Shown here piece after piece: positions 6,138 to 15,573 of a stretch of 64,000 nucleotides of DNA. The notes under the pieces are model-generated. The model did no database searches and was not told the DNA's origin. It was given only the letters and a program-made list of their open reading frames with translations. Each line of letters starts with the position of its first letter. Within the stretch, counting starts at the first letter, position 1. The position numbers were made by a program, and so were the translations under genes. This DNA is from Leptolyngbyaceae cyanobacterium JSC-12 (GTDB lineage Bacteria > Cyanobacteriota > Cyanobacteriia > Leptolyngbyales > Leptolyngbyaceae): the NCBI GenBank assembly GCA_000309945.1, contig CM001633.1, forward strand, positions 4,041,912-4,105,911. Direction: 5' to 3'.

Positions 6138-6536
6138 ATGGTTTCTGCACAAACTTCTAACGTAACCAGAAATGTAAAGATTCTTCTTGTGGAAGATAAT
6201 GATATTAGTCGTCAATTAATGACTGACTTCTTAATTGATTTTGGTTATGACGTTTTGAGTTTGGATAAAGCAACTTCGTTCGCGTCGGTTATGGAGCATT
6301 TCCAGCCAAATATCATCTTGCTCGATCTCAAACTGCCAGAGATTGACGGGTTTACTTTATTGCAACAACTCCGTCAAAAGCCTGAGTGGCGACAGGTTCC
6401 CACAATTGTTGTGTCTGCCTTTGCTTTTCATGCTGATCGGCAGCGTGCCTTGGAGTTAGGTGCTCGGCGTTATTTGGTTAAACCTGTAAAGTTAATGGAG
6501 TTGATTGAGGCGCTACAGGCTGAAACGAAATTTTAG
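6138..6536 (+). CDS. Stand-alone response regulator receiver (CheY-like)
   Basis: A 132-residue single-domain receiver. Residues ~14-128 form the whole REC domain: ILLVEDNDISRQ with the acidic pair, the phosphoacceptor aspartate in IILLDLKLPEIDGF (near residue 62), VVSAF with the conserved Ser/Thr position as Ser, and the lysine in RYLVKPVK. No output domain follows, so it probably acts by protein contact, as in phosphorelays or CheY-like control. There is no kinase gene next door. The ATG at 6138 is used. Confidence 0.9.
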   Translation: MVSAQTSNVTRNVKILLVEDNDISRQLMTDFLIDFGYDVLSLDKATSFASVMEHFQPNIILLDLKLPEIDGFTLLQQLRQKPEWRQVPTIVVSAFAFHADRQRALELGARRYLVKPVKLMELIEALQAETKF

Positions 6537-6980: not shown

Positions 6981-8936
6981 GTGGTGTTGGCAAAGCCTCT
7001 GCCGCTGGTTCAAGATCCGGAGCGTTTAGAAAATCGCTTGAGCGAGATCCCGACTGAACCTGGTGTCTACTACATGAAAGATGCCAGTGATCAGGTTCTT
7101 TATATTGGAAAATCAAAAAAGCTGCGATCGCGCATTCGGTCTTACTTCCGAGATGATCACTACCATAGCCCACGCATTGGCATGATGGTAAAGCAGGTCG
7201 TAGACATTGAATTCATCGTTACTGACACCGAAGCTGAAGCTCTAGCTCTGGAAGCCAACCTAATTAAGCAGCACCAACCTTATTACAACGTGTTGCTTAA
7301 GGATGACAAAAAATACCCGTGGCTTTGCATTACGTGGTCAGAAGATTATCCCCGAATTTTCATTACTCGAAAAAAACATTTAGGTAAAAAAGCTGACCGC
7401 TTTTATGGTCCTTATGTTGACGTAGGATTGCTGCGGCGCACACTGCATCTGGTAAAGCGCATCTTTCCGCTGAGGCAACGTCCTCAACCCCTATTTCGCG
7501 ATCGCCCTTGCCTCAACTACGACATTGGACGCTGTCCTGGAGTCTGTCAGCGGTTGATTGCGCCTGAAGAATACCACAAGATCGTGCGCAAAGTGGCGAT
7601 GGTATTCCAAGGGCGCACTGATGAATTAGTGGAGATCCTGACTGCCCAAATGGAAAAAGCCGCGGATGAGTTGAACTTTGAGGTGGCGGCACGGATTCGC
7701 GATCAAATTGCTGGCATCAAAACCCTGGCGGCTGACCAAAAAGTTGCATTGGCGGATGATACTGTTTCACGAGATGCGATCGCTCTGGCAGCCGATGAGC
7801 ACCACGCCTGTATTCAACTCTTTCAAATTCGGGCAGGGCGCTTAGTTGGACGGTTGGGATTTGTTGCTGAGGCGCAATCCGGCACCTGTGGTGAAATCTT
7901 ACAGCGTGTTTTAGAAGAGCATTATCAGAACGTAGACCCAATTGAAATCCCAGCCGAGATTCTGGTGCAGCATGAGCTACCAGACGGTGAAATCTTGGCA
8001 GAATTTTTGAGTGACACTAAAGGACGCAAAGTGTCCATTATTCAACCACAGCGTCAGACCAAAGCCGACCTGCTAGAAATGGTAGAGCGCAACGCCAGCT
8101 ATGAACTGGCTCGTACCCAACGCTTTGCTGATCGCAACACACAAGCAATGCAGGATTTAGCTGAAATTTTAGACCTCCCGGATTTGCCCCGTCGCATTGA
8201 AGGATATGACATTTCTCACATTCAAGGCTCCGATGCTGTCGCTTCTCAGGTTGTCTTCATTGATGCGTTGCCTGCCAAACAGCACTATCGCCATTACAAA
8301 ATCAAAACTCCCAGCGTTCGCTCAGGCCACTCTGATGATTTTGCCTCGATGGCAGAAGTTATCAGTCGCCGTTTTCGCAAATATGCTGCCATGAAAGAAC
8401 GAGGAGAGCCATTGCGCAGCGATCAGGCATCCGTACTGGAGCGGCATGTGTCAGCAACTTCTGACTTTCCTGATTTGATCATGATTGATGGCGGCAAAGG
8501 ACAACTTTCTGCCGTTGTGGCGGTACTGCGGGATATGAATTTACTGGAAGATGTGAAAGTGGTTAGTCTGGCAAAACAGCGAGAAGAAATTTTTTTGCCA
8601 GGAGAATCACTGCCCCTGAATACCGACGCTGAACAACCAGGGGTGCAACTGCTACGGCGCTTACGAGATGAAGCACACCGCTTTGCTGTAAGTTTTCATC
8701 GGCAAAAACGCACCGAACGCATGCGGCGATCGCGCCTGGATGAGATCCCAGGATTAGGCTTTCATCGTCAGAAACAGCTACTTGCCACCTTTCGCTCCAT
8801 TGATTATCTGCGCGAAGCGACAGTGGAGCAAATTGCAACTGTCCCAGGGATTGGACCCCGATTAGCCCAACAAATTTATGATTACTTTAATCCCAAATTA
8901 GAGGACACTGAGTCCGAACCCGCGAAGACACCATAA
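6981..8936 (+). CDS. uvrC: Excinuclease ABC subunit C
   Basis: A 651-residue UvrC, the nuclease of bacterial nucleotide excision repair that makes both incisions after UvrAB loads at a lesion. The N-terminal GIY-YIG domain (~22-105) shows [21 protein letters not shown] cysteine-rich linker ([14 protein letters not shown], ~178-190) follows, then the UVR motif for UvrB contact ([18 protein letters not shown], ~230-247) and the RNase H-like endonuclease with [15 protein letters not shown] and [12 protein letters not shown] tandem helix-hairpin-helix comes last ([26 protein letters not shown]). The start is a GTG (6981). uvrA is on the opposite strand about 3.6 kb on. Confidence 0.98.
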
Positions 8937-8992: not shown

Positions 8993-10318
8993 ATGGTGTC
9001 AGACGAACAATACTCTCTAGTATCCGAAAATCAACAGCTCCATGCAGAAATTCGCAGGTTAAAGCAAGAACTTGCAAACCTACGACAAACTAATCTGGAA
9101 CTGCAACAGGCATTGGCAGCGAATGATCAGCTTCATAGCGCTGTTGAAATGGCGTTGCGAGAATCTGAAGCTGAACTGCGTGCATTATTCGCCGCGATGA
9201 CAGATATTGTGATCGTGAAAGACTTTAACGGCCGCTACCTCAAAATTGCCCCTACCCACCTGGACAATCTCTATAAACTCCCGGAAGAACTGCTTGGCAG
9301 AACTGAATACGAAGTCTTTCCGAAAGAAATTGCTGATCGCTTTGTGGGATACGTTCAAACCGTGCTCACCACTCAGCAGGCGATGACTGTTGAGTTTTGC
9401 CTGCCCATACGAGGGGAAGACCGATGGTTTTCAACTAACATCGCTCCCCTATCAGCGAATTCTGTAGTTTGGGTAGCACGAGACATTACTGAGCGCAAAC
9501 ACACAGAAGAAGCCCTGATTCAAGCAAATCAGCAAATCACTCTGCTCAACGAACGCCTCAAGCAAGAAAATCTCCGCATGAGCGCCGAACTAGAAGTTAC
9601 CCGTCGACTCCAGCAAATGATCTTGCCACGAGAAGAAGAATTAGAACAAATTGCCGGGTTGGATATTGCTGGGTTTATGCAGCCAGCCGCTGAGGTCGGA
9701 GGGGATTACTATGACGTGCTGCAATACAATGGCAAAGTCAAAATTGGCATTGGAGATGTGACTGGGCATGGGCTAGAAAGCGGCATGGTGATGTTGATGG
9801 TGCAAACGGCTGTGAGAACCCTAATCGCCAATGGTGAAACCAATCCCATTCGATTGCTCAATACAGTGAACCGCTTAATCTATGACAATACCCGTCGAAT
9901 GCAATCGCACAAAAACATGACCCTGGCATTGTTGGAATACGAAGCAGGCATTCTGCGACTCAGCGGGCAACACGAAGAACTGATTGTGGTTCGAGCAAAT
10001 GGCGACATTGAACAGATTGACACGTTTGAGCTTGGGTTTCCACTGGGTTTGGAATCTGACATTTCTCAATTTGTCACTGAAACGAAGATTCATCTGAATC
10101 AGGGAGATATTGCAGTGCTTTATACGGATGGAATTGTGGAAGCGATGAATGTTGAGAATATTCAATATGGTTTGGAGCGAATGTACCAGGTTCTCAGCCA
10201 TCACCGCGATCGCCCCAGTGCTGACATTCGCCAGGTATTAATTGAAGACCTGATGCAACACATTGGCACCCAAAAAGTGTTTGATGATATTACATTGTTG
10301 GTTCTGAAACAAAAGTAA
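8993..10318 (+). CDS. PAS domain - SpoIIE-type PP2C serine phosphatase
   Basis: A 441-residue signalling protein. Residues ~10-60 form a coiled coil, ~62-175 a PAS domain (ALFAAMTDIVIVKDFNGRYL ending in ARDITERK), ~180-205 a linking coiled coil and ~210-440 a PPM/SpoIIE phosphatase. The phosphatase metal-binding acidic residues are visible in EVGGDYYDVL, GIGDVTGHGLESGM, LYTDGIVEAM and FDDITLLVL. Such enzymes dephosphorylate a serine on a STAS partner protein. It is followed, 200 bases on, by a diguanylate cyclase, a DUF6272 kinase-like protein and a STAS protein, so it is the likely phosphatase of that switch. There is no transmembrane span, so the signal is probably cytosolic via the PAS domain. 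Confidence 0.88.
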   Translation: MVSDEQYSLVSENQQLHAEIRRLKQELANLRQTNLELQQALAANDQLHSAVEMALRESEAELRALFAAMTDIVIVKDFNGRYLKIAPTHLDNLYKLPEELLGRTEYEVFPKEIADRFVGYVQTVLTTQQAMTVEFCLPIRGEDRWFSTNIAPLSANSVVWVARDITERKHTEEALIQANQQITLLNERLKQENLRMSAELEVTRRLQQMILPREEELEQIAGLDIAGFMQPAAEVGGDYYDVLQYNGKVKIGIGDVTGHGLESGMVMLMVQTAVRTLIANGETNPIRLLNTVNRLIYDNTRRMQSHKNMTLALLEYEAGILRLSGQHEELIVVRANGDIEQIDTFELGFPLGLESDISQFVTETKIHLNQGDIAVLYTDGIVEAMNVENIQYGLERMYQVLSHHRDRPSADIRQVLIEDLMQHIGTQKVFDDITLLVLKQK

Positions 10319-10518
10319 GGACTCTTCCCCTCTTTCTCACTGTTCTTACCGATAGAGCGGGTATTATTTATTCGGATGATTTACACTAACTTTCAAAATC
10401 ACGCAACTTTCTTGTTGGAATCGTTATTGAAATGGATTGTTGCGAATGCTAGCAGCAAGCTGGGTACTATCAACACTAGCAGACACATATAGAACTATCG
10501 GCAAGGCGAGGTACTGAA

Positions 10519-11451
10519 GTGAGCAACATCTTTCTACCAGAAGAGAGTTCTTCTCTTCATAACCTGCATGAATCGATACGAGAAGACAGCCAACGGTTGA
10601 CCTGTGATCAGCAGTCCTTGAACGAAATTAATCAATTGCGTGAGGAAATTGAACATCTCAAAAAAACAAATCGGGATCTGTATATTGCCCTATCAACAAC
10701 TGCTGAGCATGGCGACATTATCGAAGCACAGCTACAGGAAGTAAACGAACAATTGAAGGTTGAGGTTGAGGAACGCAAACGCGCAGAAGCAACGCTCAAA
10801 GCTTTATTAGAAGCCATCTCGAAACGGAAAGACGACCTGGAAATTGTGGTTCAAACCATCATGGAACACGGCGACGTGATGGATACCCAGTGGTCCCAAA
10901 AACTAACCGAAGTAAATAAGATGGCGACCCTGGACGCGCTGACACAGATTGCTAATCGCCGCCGGTTTGATGAACATCTAGAATGCCAATGGAAACAAAT
11001 GGCACAGGAGCGATCGCCTCTGGCGTTACTCCTGTGTGATATTGACCATTTCAAACAATTCAACGATGCCTATGGTCATCTAACAGGCGACGACTGTCTG
11101 CAACAGGTTGCGGCAGTGCTCAATCGGTGTGTCAACCGCCCAAGCGATCTGGTTGCTCGATTCGGTGGAGAAGAATTTGCGGTTATTCTGCCTAAGACTG
11201 ACCTCAACGGGGCGATCCGGGTCGCTGAGCGAATGCAGTCTGAAGTTGCTAAACTCCAGATTCCTCACGTTGCCTCGTTAGTGAGTAGCTACGTCACACT
11301 CAGCATTGGGATTGCTTGCTTAGTCCCCTCTTTGTTCATCTCGTCCGATGAACTGATTCGGCTGAGCGATCGCCAATTGTATCTAGCAAAACAACTGGGA
11401 AGAGATCAAATTGTTTGTGTACCTGATCCTAGTCAACACTCTTCGTCATGA
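10519..11451 (+). CDS. Diguanylate cyclase with coiled-coil N-terminus
   Basis: A 310-residue GGDEF protein predicted to make cyclic di-GMP from two GTP. The catalytic domain (~135-305) has LDALTQIANRRRF, CDIDHFKQFNDAYGH, the active-site GGEEF at 216-220 and an allosteric I-site RPSD (207-210) exactly five residues before it, so both catalysis and product inhibition look intact. Residues ~30-130 are coiled coil and carry a repeated EHGD motif (63-66 and 116-119), probably a partner-binding or signalling helix. No membrane span or other sensor is present. The start is a GTG at 10519. The last four bases overlap the next gene (ATGA), implying translational coupling. Confidence 0.92.
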   Translation: MSNIFLPEESSSLHNLHESIREDSQRLTCDQQSLNEINQLREEIEHLKKTNRDLYIALSTTAEHGDIIEAQLQEVNEQLKVEVEERKRAEATLKALLEAISKRKDDLEIVVQTIMEHGDVMDTQWSQKLTEVNKMATLDALTQIANRRRFDEHLECQWKQMAQERSPLALLLCDIDHFKQFNDAYGHLTGDDCLQQVAAVLNRCVNRPSDLVARFGGEEFAVILPKTDLNGAIRVAERMQSEVAKLQIPHVASLVSSYVTLSIGIACLVPSLFISSDELIRLSDRQLYLAKQLGRDQIVCVPDPSQHSSS

Positions 11452-12038
11452 GTCAAGCCATGCTTGTTCAAACGTTTGGCATCGTCACTGATCCAATTCC
11501 AGCCAGCGATGAATATTTGACCCTGCACTTTTCTCCCTCCTCCCTTCCTCGTAAACAACGATGGAGAAATTATGGGTTATCTGCTGATTTTTTGGGAGAT
11601 TACTTTGCGGCTTTCTTTCCAGGAGATGCTGCTCCTCAGAGTAAGATTAACCAACGAGATACTGTAAAAGCTGCTGTATCTTATATTGCGAATGAGCTTT
11701 TAGAGAATGCAGTCAAATATAACGAAGATACTTTCCATCTTCCCATCAGTATTTCTCTTTATCTATATCAGCAACAAATCATATTCCATGTAATAAATTA
11801 CACCAGTCAAACCCGTGCCGAAAAATACCAGCGATTTATTCAAGAACTGTTGAGTTCAGATCTGGATAGCTACTACATGCAACAGTTAGAGAAAACTGCA
11901 ACGGGGACAGGAGATTCCAGTATGGGTATTTTGACGATGATGAATGACTATGCCGCCAGGTTTGGCTGGAAATTTCAACCGGTAGAGACACACATGGACA
12001 CCGCTCGTGTAGATGTGTTGGTATATCTAGATGTTTAA
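11448..12038 (+). CDS. DUF6272 / slr1658-like HATPase-fold regulator (SiaB-like kinase)
   Basis: A 196-residue protein resembling the cyanobacterial slr1658 family and the DUF6272 group that includes Pseudomonas SiaB, a serine kinase of a STAS-like partner. The N-box of a GHKL ATPase is visible in AVSYIANELLENAVKYN (~76-92) and a possible G-box in TGDSSMGILTMMNDYAARFGW. Its ATG overlaps the stop of the diguanylate cyclase, and a STAS protein follows 124 bases later, so the natural reading is a kinase/anti-sigma-like component of a partner switch. The kinase activity is inferred from family and context only. Confidence 0.72.
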   Translation: MSQAMLVQTFGIVTDPIPASDEYLTLHFSPSSLPRKQRWRNYGLSADFLGDYFAAFFPGDAAPQSKINQRDTVKAAVSYIANELLENAVKYNEDTFHLPISISLYLYQQQIIFHVINYTSQTRAEKYQRFIQELLSSDLDSYYMQQLEKTATGTGDSSMGILTMMNDYAARFGWKFQPVETHMDTARVDVLVYLDV

Positions 12039-12041
12039 GCT

Positions 12042-12115
12042 ACGTCCAACTCGAAAACTGGAGGGTTCTCTAAAGAAAAACGACGAGTTTGGACGTGGAC
12101 AAGATTGAATTGGGG
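12042..12115 (+). repeat. MITE-like dispersed repeat, copy A
   Basis: About 70 bases with near-perfect ends in inverted order: ACGTCCAACTCG at the left and CGAGTTTGGACGT at the right, around a core with CTCTAAAGAAAAA. The right end continues as GGACAAGATTGAATT. Closely similar sequence occurs at 44343-44378 plus 44517-44555 and at 45384-45450. This copy fills the spacer between the DUF6272 and STAS genes. Confidence 0.75.
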
Positions 12116-12162
12116 CATTTCCCGCCACAGACGTGAATACATATGTGAATACATAATTTTGA

Positions 12163-12519
12163 ATGGGAACTCTTACTGTGGAAATTAAAACTGACGATTA
12201 TAGAATTTGGTATGAGCCAGGCTCCGCAACAGTCCACTTTCAGGGGTTACTGCGGTTAGATGGAATGGAAAAATATCAGTCCATCATGGATATTTTGCTG
12301 AATGTTATTGATCAACTTTCAGCACTCACAATTGACTTGCGTGAATTGGAATTTTTGAACAGTTCAGGAATTAGCATGTTATCAATGTTTGTTGTGAAAG
12401 TGCGAGACAGAGGCGACGTACAGCTTACATTCAAAGGTTCAGACCAGGTACTTTGGCAAACAAAATCGCTAAAAAACTTGCAACGGTTGATGCCCGGTCT
12501 GGTATTGGAATTTGAGTAG
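12163..12519 (+). CDS. STAS-domain / slr1659-like regulator (anti-sigma-factor antagonist type)
   Basis: A 118-residue single STAS-fold protein, of the kind encoded as slr1659 in Synechocystis. The signature TIDLRELEFLNSSGISMLSMF (~56-76) places a candidate phosphorylated serine at residue 67 or 68, in the position of the SpoIIAA serine (DSSG). Expected role: it is phosphorylated by the neighbouring HATPase-like protein and dephosphorylated by the SpoIIE-type phosphatase, and its state controls a partner, here perhaps the diguanylate cyclase two genes upstream. It ends three bases before the convergent uvrA stop. Confidence 0.82.
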   Translation: MGTLTVEIKTDDYRIWYEPGSATVHFQGLLRLDGMEKYQSIMDILLNVIDQLSALTIDLRELEFLNSSGISMLSMFVVKVRDRGDVQLTFKGSDQVLWQTKSLKNLQRLMPGLVLEFE

Positions 12520-12522
12520 GGG

Positions 12523-15500
12523 TTAAGCTGTGCAGAGAATGGGCGGATACTGTTGGAGTACCTGTTTCAGGTATTGACCAGTGTAAGAGTGTGGATTTTC
12601 TGCAACGTCTTCAGGTGTCCCAATCGCAATGATTTCCCCACCCCGATCGCCCCCTTCTGGTCCCAGATCAATCAACCAATCAGAGCAACGAATAACATCT
12701 AAATTGTGCTCAATCACCAAAATGGAATTGCCCTTATCGACTAGGCGTTGCATTACATCAAGCAGCTTGTGAACATCGTAGAACGATAGTCCTGTAGTAG
12801 GTTCATCAATCAGATACAGGGTTTTGCCTGTTGCCCGTCGAGACAGTTCAGTTGCTAATTTTACTCGTTGAGCCTCTCCACCGGATAGAGTTGGTGCCGT
12901 TTGTCCCAGCCGAACATAGCCCAAACCCACATCTACCAACGTTTGTAATCGGGCAGCAGCTTGAGGAATGTTTTTGCAAAACTCCAGGGCTTCTTCAACT
13001 GTCATCCCCAATACATCTGCGATCGACTTGCCCTTAAACTTGACTTGCAGTGTTTCTCGGTTGTAGCGTGCCCCTTTACACACCTCGCACTGCACATATA
13101 CATCCGGCAAGAAGTTCATTTCAATGACGTTGACCCCTTGCCCAGCACACGCTTCGCAGCGTCCTCCTTTTACATTGAATGAAAACTGCCCTGGTTTGTA
13201 GCCTCTGGCTTTTGCCTCAACAGTCTCAGCGAACACATCCCGAATGACATCAAAAACACCTGTATAAGTGGCAGGGTTGGAGCGGGGTGTGCGCCCAATG
13301 GGGGATTGGTCAATCACAATGACTTTGTCGAGTGCGTTTAAGCCATCAATTTTGTCGATTTCTTTAGGAAATGGGACTTTGCTGCCGAAGTGGTGCTGCA
13401 AGGCAGGATAGAGGAGTTCGTTGATCAGGGTTGACTTGCCAGAACCGGATACTCCTGTGACACATACTAGTTTTCCTAAGGGAATTTCAACATCGATGTT
13501 TTTCAGGTTGTTACGGTGGGCGTTCCGAAGGTGGAGCGATCGCCCATTGCCAGGTCGGCGTTGCCCCGGGGTTTGAATCACTTGTCGTCCTGACAAGTAT
13601 GCCCCTGTCAAAGACTCTTGCGTGTTTAAAATATCGTCCAATCCGCCCTGAGCAACGATCTGCCCACCATGAATTCCAGCACCAGGACCAATATCTACTA
13701 AATGGTCGGCGGCTCGAATGGTTTCTTCATCATGCTCAACTACAATCAGTGTATTCCCCAAATCTCGCAGTTTTGTCAGGGTTCGGAGCAAGCGAGAATT
13801 ATCGCGCTGGTGCAACCCAATGCTAGGTTCATCTAGGACGTAAAGTACTCCTGTCAGTCCAGAGCCAATTTGAGTCGCCAGTCGAATCCGTTGCGCTTCC
13901 CCACCAGAAAGGGTCATGGCCGGGCGATCGAGGGTAAGATAATCTAAACCGACATCCAGTAAAAACTGCAACCGAGCTTTAATTTCCCGCAATACTAAAT
14001 CCCCAATTTGTACTTGTCGGGGGCTGAGTTGCATTGCATTGACCCGGTTGAGACATTCTTGAATCGAGACGCTGGTGAGATCAGTAAGACGAAACTGCCC
14101 CAGGCGGACGGCAAGGGCTTCGGGTTTTAGTCGTTTACCCTGGCACACGTCGCAGGGTTGATCGACCAGGTATTGTTCTAGCTTTTGCTTATATACATCG
14201 GAACTGGCTTCCTGATATTGGCGTTCTAACAAAGGCAAGGCACCTTCGTAGCGGCGATTGTAGCCTTTACTCTCTCGATAGCGAGAGTCTACTTCAATCC
14301 AAATCGGTTCTTTGGAGCCATACAGTAGAACGTGCTGTTGTTCCTCTGTCAGGTCTTTCCAGGGTGTCTGGATATCGAACCCGTAGGCATTGGCGACGCT
14401 GCACAGCAGGGAAAGGTAGTAGGTGTTGTCTTTATCAGACCAGGGTGCGATCGCCGCATACACTGGTAGCTCTGGCTTAGGCACAACCAATTCAGGTGCA
14501 AATCTGCGATGACTGCCTAACCCGTGACAAGCGGGGCAAGCACCGTAGGGTGAGTTGAAGGAGAATAACCGGGGAGAAAGTTCCTCCATCACGGCACCGT
14601 GTTCAGGACAGGCAAAGTTTTCGGAGAAAATGAGGGGTGCAGAAAGGGAGGCATCGGTAGTCGCGGCGTCGCCGTAGTTGCCGCCTTTTTCCGCGACTCT
14701 CAGAGTTTTCCCAATGGGCAATTCCACAACCTTGCCAGAATCCTGACTGCTGGCTCCTTCTTCTGGCACAATATCAATTACAGCAATCCCGCCGGAATGC
14801 TTGAGGCAGGTGGAAAGGGAGTCGATTAAGCGTTCTTCAATTCCTGGTTTTTTGACCAGGCGGTCTACCACAATTTCAATAGTGTGAGCCTGATTTTTGT
14901 CGAGTTCGATCGAGTCGCTCAGTTCTCGCACTTCCCCATCAATTCGTACCCGCACAAAGCCTTCAGCACTGAGGCTAGAAAGCAATTTTTTATGAGTGCC
15001 TTTCTTGCCGCGAATCACGGGAGCCAGAATTTGGAATCGGGTGCGATCTGGCAATTCCATGATGCGATCGCTCATTTGATCGATTGTTTGAGGTGCGATC
15101 GAGCGATCACAATGGGGACAATGGGGTTCACCTGCTCGCCCAAACAGCAGCCGCAAGTAGTCGTAAATTTCAGTAACCGTCCCCACTGTAGAGCGAGGAT
15201 TGTGAGAAGTGGATTTTTGATCAATCGAAATGGCAGGACTTAGCCCTTCAATGGCATCGACATCCGGCTTATCTACCTGCCCCAAAAACTGGCGAGCGTA
15301 GGCACTGAGCGACTCCACATAGCGGCGTTGTCCTTCTGCAAAGATTGTGTCAAACGCTAGGGATGACTTACCGGATCCCGAAACTCCGGTAAATACAATC
15401 AGGCGATTGCGGGGTAATTCCAGGTCAATATTTTTCAGATTGTGCTGTCGTGCGCCGCGAATCCGGATATTGTCTTGCAAGAGGGGATTGTAAGTAGCAT

Positions 15501-15573
15501 GACCGTTCTGCGAAGTCGGTGTTGAACGATCCGATCCGTTGCGGCGTTTAGACATAGGAATCGATAGAAACAT
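12523..15573 (-). CDS. uvrA: Excinuclease ABC subunit A
   Basis: A 1016-residue UvrA, the damage-sensing ATPase dimer that loads UvrB in nucleotide excision repair. Two ABC ATPase modules are complete: Walker A GVSGSGKSSLAFDT with zinc-binding CPHCDRSI in the first half, ABC signature LSGGEAQRIRLATQIG, then Walker A GVSGSGKSTLINELL, the second zinc finger (CEACAGQG...CEVCKGARYN) and LSGGEAQRVKLATEL with LYLIDEPTTGL. The first ATG (15573) gives MFLSIPMSKRRNG; the second Met, 18 bases later (15555), is also possible, since neither has a strong ribosome site. Most UvrA are 940-970 residues; the excess is an N-terminal extension plus an acidic/serine insert near residue 275. Confidence 0.98.
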   Translation of the reverse strand: MFLSIPMSKRRNGSDRSTPTSQNGHATYNPLLQDNIRIRGARQHNLKNIDLELPRNRLIVFTGVSGSGKSSLAFDTIFAEGQRRYVESLSAYARQFLGQVDKPDVDAIEGLSPAISIDQKSTSHNPRSTVGTVTEIYDYLRLLFGRAGEPHCPHCDRSIAPQTIDQMSDRIMELPDRTRFQILAPVIRGKKGTHKKLLSSLSAEGFVRVRIDGEVRELSDSIELDKNQAHTIEIVVDRLVKKPGIEERLIDSLSTCLKHSGGIAVIDIVPEEGASSQDSGKVVELPIGKTLRVAEKGGNYGDAATTDASLSAPLIFSENFACPEHGAVMEELSPRLFSFNSPYGACPACHGLGSHRRFAPELVVPKPELPVYAAIAPWSDKDNTYYLSLLCSVANAYGFDIQTPWKDLTEEQQHVLLYGSKEPIWIEVDSRYRESKGYNRRYEGALPLLERQYQEASSDVYKQKLEQYLVDQPCDVCQGKRLKPEALAVRLGQFRLTDLTSVSIQECLNRVNAMQLSPRQVQIGDLVLREIKARLQFLLDVGLDYLTLDRPAMTLSGGEAQRIRLATQIGSGLTGVLYVLDEPSIGLHQRDNSRLLRTLTKLRDLGNTLIVVEHDEETIRAADHLVDIGPGAGIHGGQIVAQGGLDDILNTQESLTGAYLSGRQVIQTPGQRRPGNGRSLHLRNAHRNNLKNIDVEIPLGKLVCVTGVSGSGKSTLINELLYPALQHHFGSKVPFPKEIDKIDGLNALDKVIVIDQSPIGRTPRSNPATYTGVFDVIRDVFAETVEAKARGYKPGQFSFNVKGGRCEACAGQGVNVIEMNFLPDVYVQCEVCKGARYNRETLQVKFKGKSIADVLGMTVEEALEFCKNIPQAAARLQTLVDVGLGYVRLGQTAPTLSGGEAQRVKLATELSRRATGKTLYLIDEPTTGLSFYDVHKLLDVMQRLVDKGNSILVIEHNLDVIRCSDWLIDLGPEGGDRGGEIIAIGTPEDVAENPHSYTGQYLKQVLQQYPPILCTA

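Follow-up and report, generated by a model that had tools for sequence, protein, structure and literature searches.

A candidate Sia-type partner switch with a tandem stalk motif on its diguanylate cyclase in Leptolyngbyaceae cyanobacterium JSC-12

Gene content of the locus

We have analyzed a set of four genes in the genome of Leptolyngbyaceae cyanobacterium JSC-12 (5.53 Mb, one contig, CM001633.1) whose products resemble those of the SiaABCD partner switch of Pseudomonas aeruginosa. The window, i.e., the whole stretch of DNA that was analyzed, comprises 64,000 nt (contig positions 4,041,912 to 4,105,911), and the four-gene set occupies 8993-12519, with all genes reading rightward. Coordinates and Pfam matches bear out the succession given in a first-pass annotation of this DNA, namely a PAS/SpoIIE phosphatase, a coiled-coil GGDEF protein, a kinase-fold protein and a STAS protein in four consecutive genes, as well as the ATGA (11448-11451) in which the cyclase stop overlaps the kinase start. 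The features are as follows.

8993..10318, + strand: PAS_4 plus SpoIIE (PP2C-type) phosphatase, 441 residues; proposed to sense the signal and to dephosphorylate the STAS protein (SiaA role by analogy)
10519..11451, + strand: coiled-coil diguanylate cyclase, 310 residues, with a Pfam GGDEF match; proposed output enzyme (SiaD role by analogy)
10654..10737, + strand: stalk motif copy 1, residues 46-73 of the cyclase, ...DLYIALSTTAEHGDIIEAQL..., by profile match
10813..10896, + strand: stalk motif copy 2, residues 99-126, ...DLEIVVQTIMEHGDVMDTQW..., by profile match, 53 residues past copy 1
10924..11409, + strand: GGDEF catalytic domain, residues 136-297, by Pfam
11448..12038, + strand: Slr1658-family protein, 196 residues, with a predicted GHKL serine-kinase fold, by NCBIfam and AlphaFold2 (AF2)/Foldseek (SiaB role by analogy)
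12163..12519, + strand: Slr1659-family STAS protein, 118 residues, by NCBIfam and AF2/Foldseek (SiaC role by analogy)
12358..12369, + strand: candidate phospho-site N66-S67-S68-G69 of the STAS protein, by invariance, position at a helix start and hhalign alignment to SiaC

The phosphatase gene matches Pfam SpoIIE (2.2e-37) and PAS_4 (9.2e-16), and its translation shows the metal-site motifs GGDYYDV, GDVTGHG, TDGIVE and DDIT. The cyclase matches Pfam GGDEF (2.4e-53) in a domain lying C-terminal to the coiled coil, and a motif check found that it retains GGEEF together with an RxxD inhibitory I-site (RPSD).

The kinase and STAS protein as Slr1658 and Slr1659 family members

The third and fourth genes fall into known cyanobacterial families, an identity that the first-pass annotation had missed. 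Gene 3 scores 257 bits against the slr1658 family NF052618 (cut-off 200) and 221 bits against the superfamily NF047703 (cut-off 100), gene 4 scores 150 bits against the slr1659 superfamily NF047705 (cut-off 100), and the host genome encodes one Slr1658 and one Slr1659 above cut-off. The more general Pfam models are narrowly missed, DUF6272 by gene 3 (24.8 bits, cut-off 26.6) and STAS by gene 4 (20.7 bits, cut-off 22.6); DUF6272 matches 37/39 kinase relatives at E<=0.01.

Residues of predicted functional importance are intact in both proteins. In the kinase N-box (E83-L-L-E86-N87), positions E83, L84, E86 and N87 are invariant across 68 Slr1658 sequences, and the candidate phospho-serine noted in the first-pass annotation lies within N66-S67-S68-G69, which is invariant in 68/68 Slr1659 sequences. 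Both AF2 models are confident (predicted local distance difference test, pLDDT, 88.5 for the kinase and 91.1 for the STAS protein), and in the latter S67 is the first residue of the second helix (67-83). In SpoIIAA and SiaC, too, the phosphorylated residue stands at the start of the second helix. Thus, genes for a predicted GHKL-fold kinase, a candidate STAS phosphoprotein and a SpoIIE phosphatase stand together in this locus, with N-box and NSSG preserved, as in a partner switch.

No PDB sequence matched the kinase in a profile search, so that its fold had to be compared instead. Foldseek ranked SiaB (6kko_A, E 4.8e-5) first in the PDB, ahead of sigma-factor switches; VIA-align gave the same Z of 13.0 to SiaB (155 residues aligned, 3.2 A) and to Usfx (129 residues, 2.7 A). 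For the STAS model, Foldseek PDB ranks 1-6 are all SiaC (E 4.6e-5 to 1.2e-4), SiaD-bound chains included, and VIA-align gave Z 13.2 for SiaC over 116 residues at 2.6 A, with other STAS proteins at 12.0 or less. Judged from these models, the folds of the two proteins are SiaB-like and SiaC-like. Profile-profile comparison by hhalign, for which the Sia reference consisted of the gammaproteobacterial loci L220 and L221, with L214 and L215 as looser additions (the SiaA, SiaB, SiaC and SiaD models are all passed by L220, and the SiaB-family model by L215), linked Slr1658 with SiaB (P 9.8e-6) and Slr1659 with SiaC (P 2e-6); in the latter alignment NSSG pairs with the NTSS of SiaC, placing S67 opposite SiaC T68. 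The Pfam SiaC (DUF1987) model matches 19/41 Slr1659 relatives, weakly, at E<=0.01. Together with SiaC as the nearest fold, this leaves little of an earlier contrast between a "true STAS" protein here and DUF1987 in Pseudomonas.

That the four functions are the same, and that kinase and STAS protein are remotely homologous to their Sia counterparts, would also suit a plain SiaABCD operon belonging to the Sia family proper. We regard this as very improbable, since none of the four proteins passes the Sia models. The phosphatase scores 58 bits against the SiaA equivalog NF038263 (cut-off 700), in its phosphatase part only; the cyclase scores 138 bits against the SiaD equivalog NF038266 (cut-off 290), in its GGDEF part only; the kinase has no match to the NCBIfam SiaB models (NF038264, NF038262), and the STAS protein has none to the SiaC/DUF1987 models (PF09345/NF038265). 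Moreover, no SiaC-family gene was found in the host genome, and both the candidate docking motif described below and the gene order differ. The Slr1658/Slr1659 pair therefore seems distantly related to SiaB/SiaC while lying outside both families by curated cut-offs.

A tandem motif in the coiled-coil stalk of the cyclase

The N-terminal coiled coil of output proteins encoded next to Slr1658 carries a motif of 28 residues with the consensus LxxExxDLEIxLETTxEHGDxxExxL, in which the Asp and His are almost invariant and the H-G-D core is kept. Judged from sequence, this tandem stalk motif is the new element of the locus, the Slr1658/Slr1659 families of the last two genes being already known. The window cyclase bears two copies, with the HxD residues H64/D66 and H117/D119; copy 1 matches the profile with an independent E-value (i-E) of 1.5e-10 among the open reading frames of the window, and of 4.6e-15 with a 38-column model in the whole genome.

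The geometry of the motif is regular across GGDEF proteins, which bear 2-3 copies. Copies are spaced by 53 residues in 47/61 cases (named set) and otherwise mostly by 46, 60 or 67, i.e., by heptad steps, and the last copy keeps the same interval to the GGDEF domain start in 40/43 proteins, the three exceptions deviating by -7 or +14. In the window cyclase, Asp119 of copy 2 lies 20 residues ahead of Asp139 in the DxLT of the GGDEF domain. The same holds for SiaD: the P. aeruginosa protein (sequence of 7e6g) and two other SiaDs each contain two copies of the SiaC-binding motif (ISD), 32 residues apart, with the last motif Asp exactly 20 residues ahead of DxLT. This shared geometry could have arisen by chance with a probability of roughly one-in-ten, which is an estimate, not a computed value. 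In the SiaC-SiaD crystal structure, SiaC residues T68, N67 and S69 contact the stalk at the SiaD motif copies (PMC8457831). Thus, two motif copies at a fixed distance from the GGDEF domain are observed in the window cyclase as in SiaD; the motif sequence differs from that of SiaD, and docking is a prediction.

Synteny, motif carriers and co-occurrence

A scan of 386 cyanobacterial genomes found Slr1658 above cut-off in 51. Neighborhoods were counted in two partly overlapping locus sets (71 loci and 80 named loci): in 67/71 and 77/80 loci the Slr1659 gene is no more than 600 bp away from Slr1658, and 41/71 and 53/80 have a SpoIIE gene at a distance of at most 2.5 kb. The conserved synteny on which the first-pass annotation had made its reading depend was found, with the window order SpoIIE-GGDEF-1658-1659 recurring in six other named loci (L132, L133, L157, L160, L162 and L163). 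Because this identical four-gene order recurs and Slr1659 adjoins Slr1658 in most loci, the arrangement is not a chance one. Variants include loci with a class III cyclase added 3' of the STAS gene (L134, L135, L138, L183) and the cluster GGDEF(2 motifs)-1658-1659 of Synechocystis salina (L166). Genomes of the Scytolyngbya or Pantanalinema type (L134, L183) are examples that hold both kinds of motif-bearing cyclase.

Among genes no farther than 2.5 kb from Slr1658 in the named set, 40/45 GGDEF and 39/41 class III cyclase genes bear the motif, and in 14/80 named loci one motif-bearing GGDEF gene and one motif-bearing class III cyclase gene surround a single Slr1658-Slr1659 pair. The class III (Guanylate_cyc) cyclases carry it with or without PAS/GAF domains, and further carriers are GGDEF-EAL proteins, a CHASE2-histidine kinase, hybrid histidine kinases, PAS-only proteins and a 163-residue HAMP-type protein. 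An earlier proposal that the switch ties a sensed signal to cyclic di-GMP (c-di-GMP) thus holds insofar as the GGDEF cyclase bears the motif, and is too narrow insofar as class III cyclases and histidine kinases bear it as well. In the host genome, the motif occurs on 1/9 GGDEF domains, that of the window cyclase only.

By genome, the motif was found in 42/386, and 41 of these 42 encode Slr1658 (Fisher p 2e-41, with kinship ignored); in the remaining genome (G203), Slr1659 lies beside both motif genes. Motif proteins encoded far from the Slr1658 locus either have another Slr1659 gene next to them (L115-L117, L123) or stand by themselves (L107-L114, L118), and such unlinked motif proteins never occur in genomes devoid of the Slr1658/Slr1659 pair or its STAS member. 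The motif model was trained on Slr1658 neighbors, the unlinked proteins being outside the training set.

Some further loci are recorded here as side observations. In L044 (5978-8141) a motif GGDEF gene is flanked by two different Slr1659 genes, which suggests two adaptors for one cyclase. Contig JAABRD010000010.1 (L165) of a Thiotrichaceae metagenome-assembled genome (MAG), binned as a gammaproteobacterium, carries an Slr1658-Slr1659 pair with a GGDEF gene, its kinase being 53% identical to that of the window, by lateral transfer or binning error. Loci L214 (3204-8040) and L215 (1209-6195), likewise from a Thiotrichaceae MAG, hold two SiaB-SiaC pairs with adjoining SpoIIE genes and, downstream, a class III cyclase that also contains a response-regulator domain and has a stalk stretch (KMGDLQQGQL / KTGDIQQGQL) resembling EHGDLIEAQL; SiaC-type switches may, accordingly, also drive non-GGDEF cyclases.

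A probable partner switch acting through the stalk

Taken together, gene identities, synteny, invariant kinase and phospho-site residues, tandem motif geometry and co-occurrence lead to a partner-switch model, and we consider it probable that the locus encodes a Sia-type switch whose Slr1659 component controls cyclase output by docking on the stalk motifs. It is mainly the phylogenetic profile that leads us to read the motif as an Slr1659 docking site, not as a generic coiled coil.

Several observations weigh against this interpretation. Comparison of the EHGD motif with the SiaC-binding motif of SiaD by hhalign revealed no significant similarity (E 0.27), so that the likeness of the two stalk motifs rests on position, copy number and partners; a search of the stalk motif against the PDB returned unrelated coiled coils only. 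The co-occurrence carries some ascertainment bias from the training of the motif model, and related genomes are not independent. The sign of regulation is not readable from sequence. Finally, 10/51 Slr1658 genomes contain no motif even at E<=1, save partial matches at chance level; in these genomes Slr1659 must therefore have other targets, and the motif does not accompany every member of the family.

These ten genomes would suit an explanation by which the motif is a purely structural coiled-coil element (a dimerization or signaling helix) inherited along with the cyclase genes. Slr1658/Slr1659 would then control something different, e.g., a sigma factor or an anti-sigma factor, with the cyclase as a cotranscribed neighbor. 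The same folds do act on sigma factors in the SpoIIAA/SpoIIAB and RsbV/RsbW pairs, and in Synechocystis the deletion of slr1658 is reported to alter transcription, with over-expression strongest for pgr5 (Zer et al., 2018, as summarized in PMC7555055). However, a generic coiled coil would be unlikely to keep the H-G-D core or to show such a distribution: the motif sits on unrelated outputs, including genes unlinked to Slr1658, and yet is confined to Slr1658/Slr1659 genomes. Cyclase targets also have precedents in SiaD, HsbD and BgrR (PMC8457831), and the structural explanation appears distinctly unlikely to us.

In the docking model, the Slr1658-family kinase would phosphorylate the Slr1659-family STAS protein on S67, and the PAS-SpoIIE phosphatase would reverse this whenever its PAS domain adopts the appropriate state. 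Once dephosphorylated, the STAS protein would dock on the two EHGD motifs of the parallel coiled-coil stalk of the cyclase, fixing the stalk register or oligomeric state and thereby setting c-di-GMP synthesis. We infer the kinase and phosphatase activities, the docking on the stalk and the activation by unphosphorylated STAS protein; by analogy with SiaC/SiaD, unphosphorylated Slr1659 should activate the cyclase, an opposite sign being possible.

That opposite sign is the substance of another explanation, by which the STAS protein docks but inhibits the cyclase, or works when phosphorylated. It draws weight from the unreadable sign and from HsbA/HsbD and BgrV/BgrR, STAS-cyclase switches known beside SiaC/SiaD in which the phospho-state of the STAS protein matters (PMC8457831). 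The two tandem motifs, the 20-residue GGDEF offset and the nearest folds, SiaC and SiaB, point instead to the SiaC/SiaD mode, in which phospho-T68 clashes with the stalk (PMC8457831), and we regard inhibition, or action in the phosphorylated form, as rather doubtful.

In relatives, where the docking motif lies on class III cyclases and histidine kinases, one STAS switch may feed c-di-GMP, cyclic AMP (cAMP)-type or phosphorelay outputs. We lean, by a modest degree, towards the corresponding generalization of a portable STAS-docking stalk, by which one and the same Slr1659 would recognize the repeated EHGD motif whether it sits on a diguanylate cyclase, a class III cyclase or a histidine kinase, and a single phospho-switch would set c-di-GMP and cAMP together.

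Flanking genes and intergenic sequence

The four-gene set is flanked by what we take, from the translations alone, to be uvrC (6981-8936) and a convergent uvrA (12523-15573), and a response-regulator receiver domain stands alone upstream of uvrC (6138-6536). A scan for promoters and terminators gave scores no higher than those of shuffled sequences, and the hints of cotranscription are the ATGA overlap and the short gaps. A regulatory hairpin was at first suspected in the 124-base gap 5' of the STAS gene, but the gap proved to hold a dispersed repeat: a palindromic element of ~70 bases (ACGTCCAA...TTGGACGT) at 12039-12110, between the Slr1658 and Slr1659 genes, with some 35 matches genome-wide (74-89% identity); the window has two further matches, at about 44.5 kb and about 45.4 kb.

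Implications

Slr1658 has a clear phenotype in Synechocystis (recovery from iron starvation, control of pgr5) and no mechanism in the searchable literature. The reading advanced here would place it in a phospho-switch acting on second-messenger enzymes, and it names candidate contact residues. If slr1657, which lies 5' of slr1658, corresponds to the GGDEF gene of S. salina, as gene order suggests, c-di-GMP would become a candidate for the missing step. More generally, STAS partner switches may serve as interchangeable front ends, with the output depending on which enzyme bears the docking stalk, and a single adaptor may govern two major nucleotide messengers. The motif provides a simple sequence test for candidate targets of the Slr1659 switch in any genome.

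Comparison with known systems

Among the closest known systems are Slr1658/Slr1659 of Synechocystis sp. PCC 6803, the window genes 3 and 4 being members of these families above cut-offs. Slr1658 came to light through a Synechocystis mutant defective in recovery from iron starvation and is described genetically, as a putative two-component gene involved in this recovery and in pgr5 expression (Zer et al., 2018, cited in PMC7555055). The searchable literature yielded no tie of Slr1658 to c-di-GMP, Slr1659 or a docking motif, nothing on DUF6272 and nothing joining Slr1659 to a cyclase.

The HsbA/HsbD (P. aeruginosa) and BgrV/BgrR (Sinorhizobium meliloti) systems are partner switches in which a STAS protein controls a diguanylate cyclase, as proposed here; a tandem stalk motif is not described for them in the available portions of PMC8457831 and PMC5085249, and the likeness drawn here is one of described function. 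In SpoIIAA/SpoIIAB, RsbV/RsbW and Usfx/RsfB, the kinase and STAS folds and the [DN]-S-S-G phospho-site are like those of the window pair, whereas these switches act on a sigma factor instead of a cyclase, and the window motif has Asn for Asp.

SiaABCD of P. aeruginosa (SiaC-SiaD, 7e6g; SiaB-SiaC, 6kko) shares several features with the window set: a SpoIIE phosphatase, a GHKL kinase fold, a STAS-fold protein bearing N-[ST]-S where helix 2 begins, and a GGDEF cyclase with two stalk motifs, the last Asp of which lies 20 residues ahead of DxLT. The two differ in gene order, as the first-pass annotation had stated (A-D-B-C in the window vs. A-B-C-D in SiaABCD, e.g., L220 and L221), in the sensor (a soluble PAS vs. 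the longer SiaA), in the phospho-site (NSSG vs. NTSS) and in the stalk motif (EHGD with spacing 53 vs. RISD with spacing 32). The window set also stays below all Sia equivalog cut-offs, and its relatives are predicted to drive class III cyclases and histidine kinases as well. Overall, the SiaABCD analogy first drawn for this locus has gained from Foldseek, profile comparison and the tandem stalk motifs, and has to be amended by the Slr1658/Slr1659 identity of two of its genes; a module that works like SiaABCD from outside the Sia families, as a variant switch with broader outputs, is partly supported by the present analysis.

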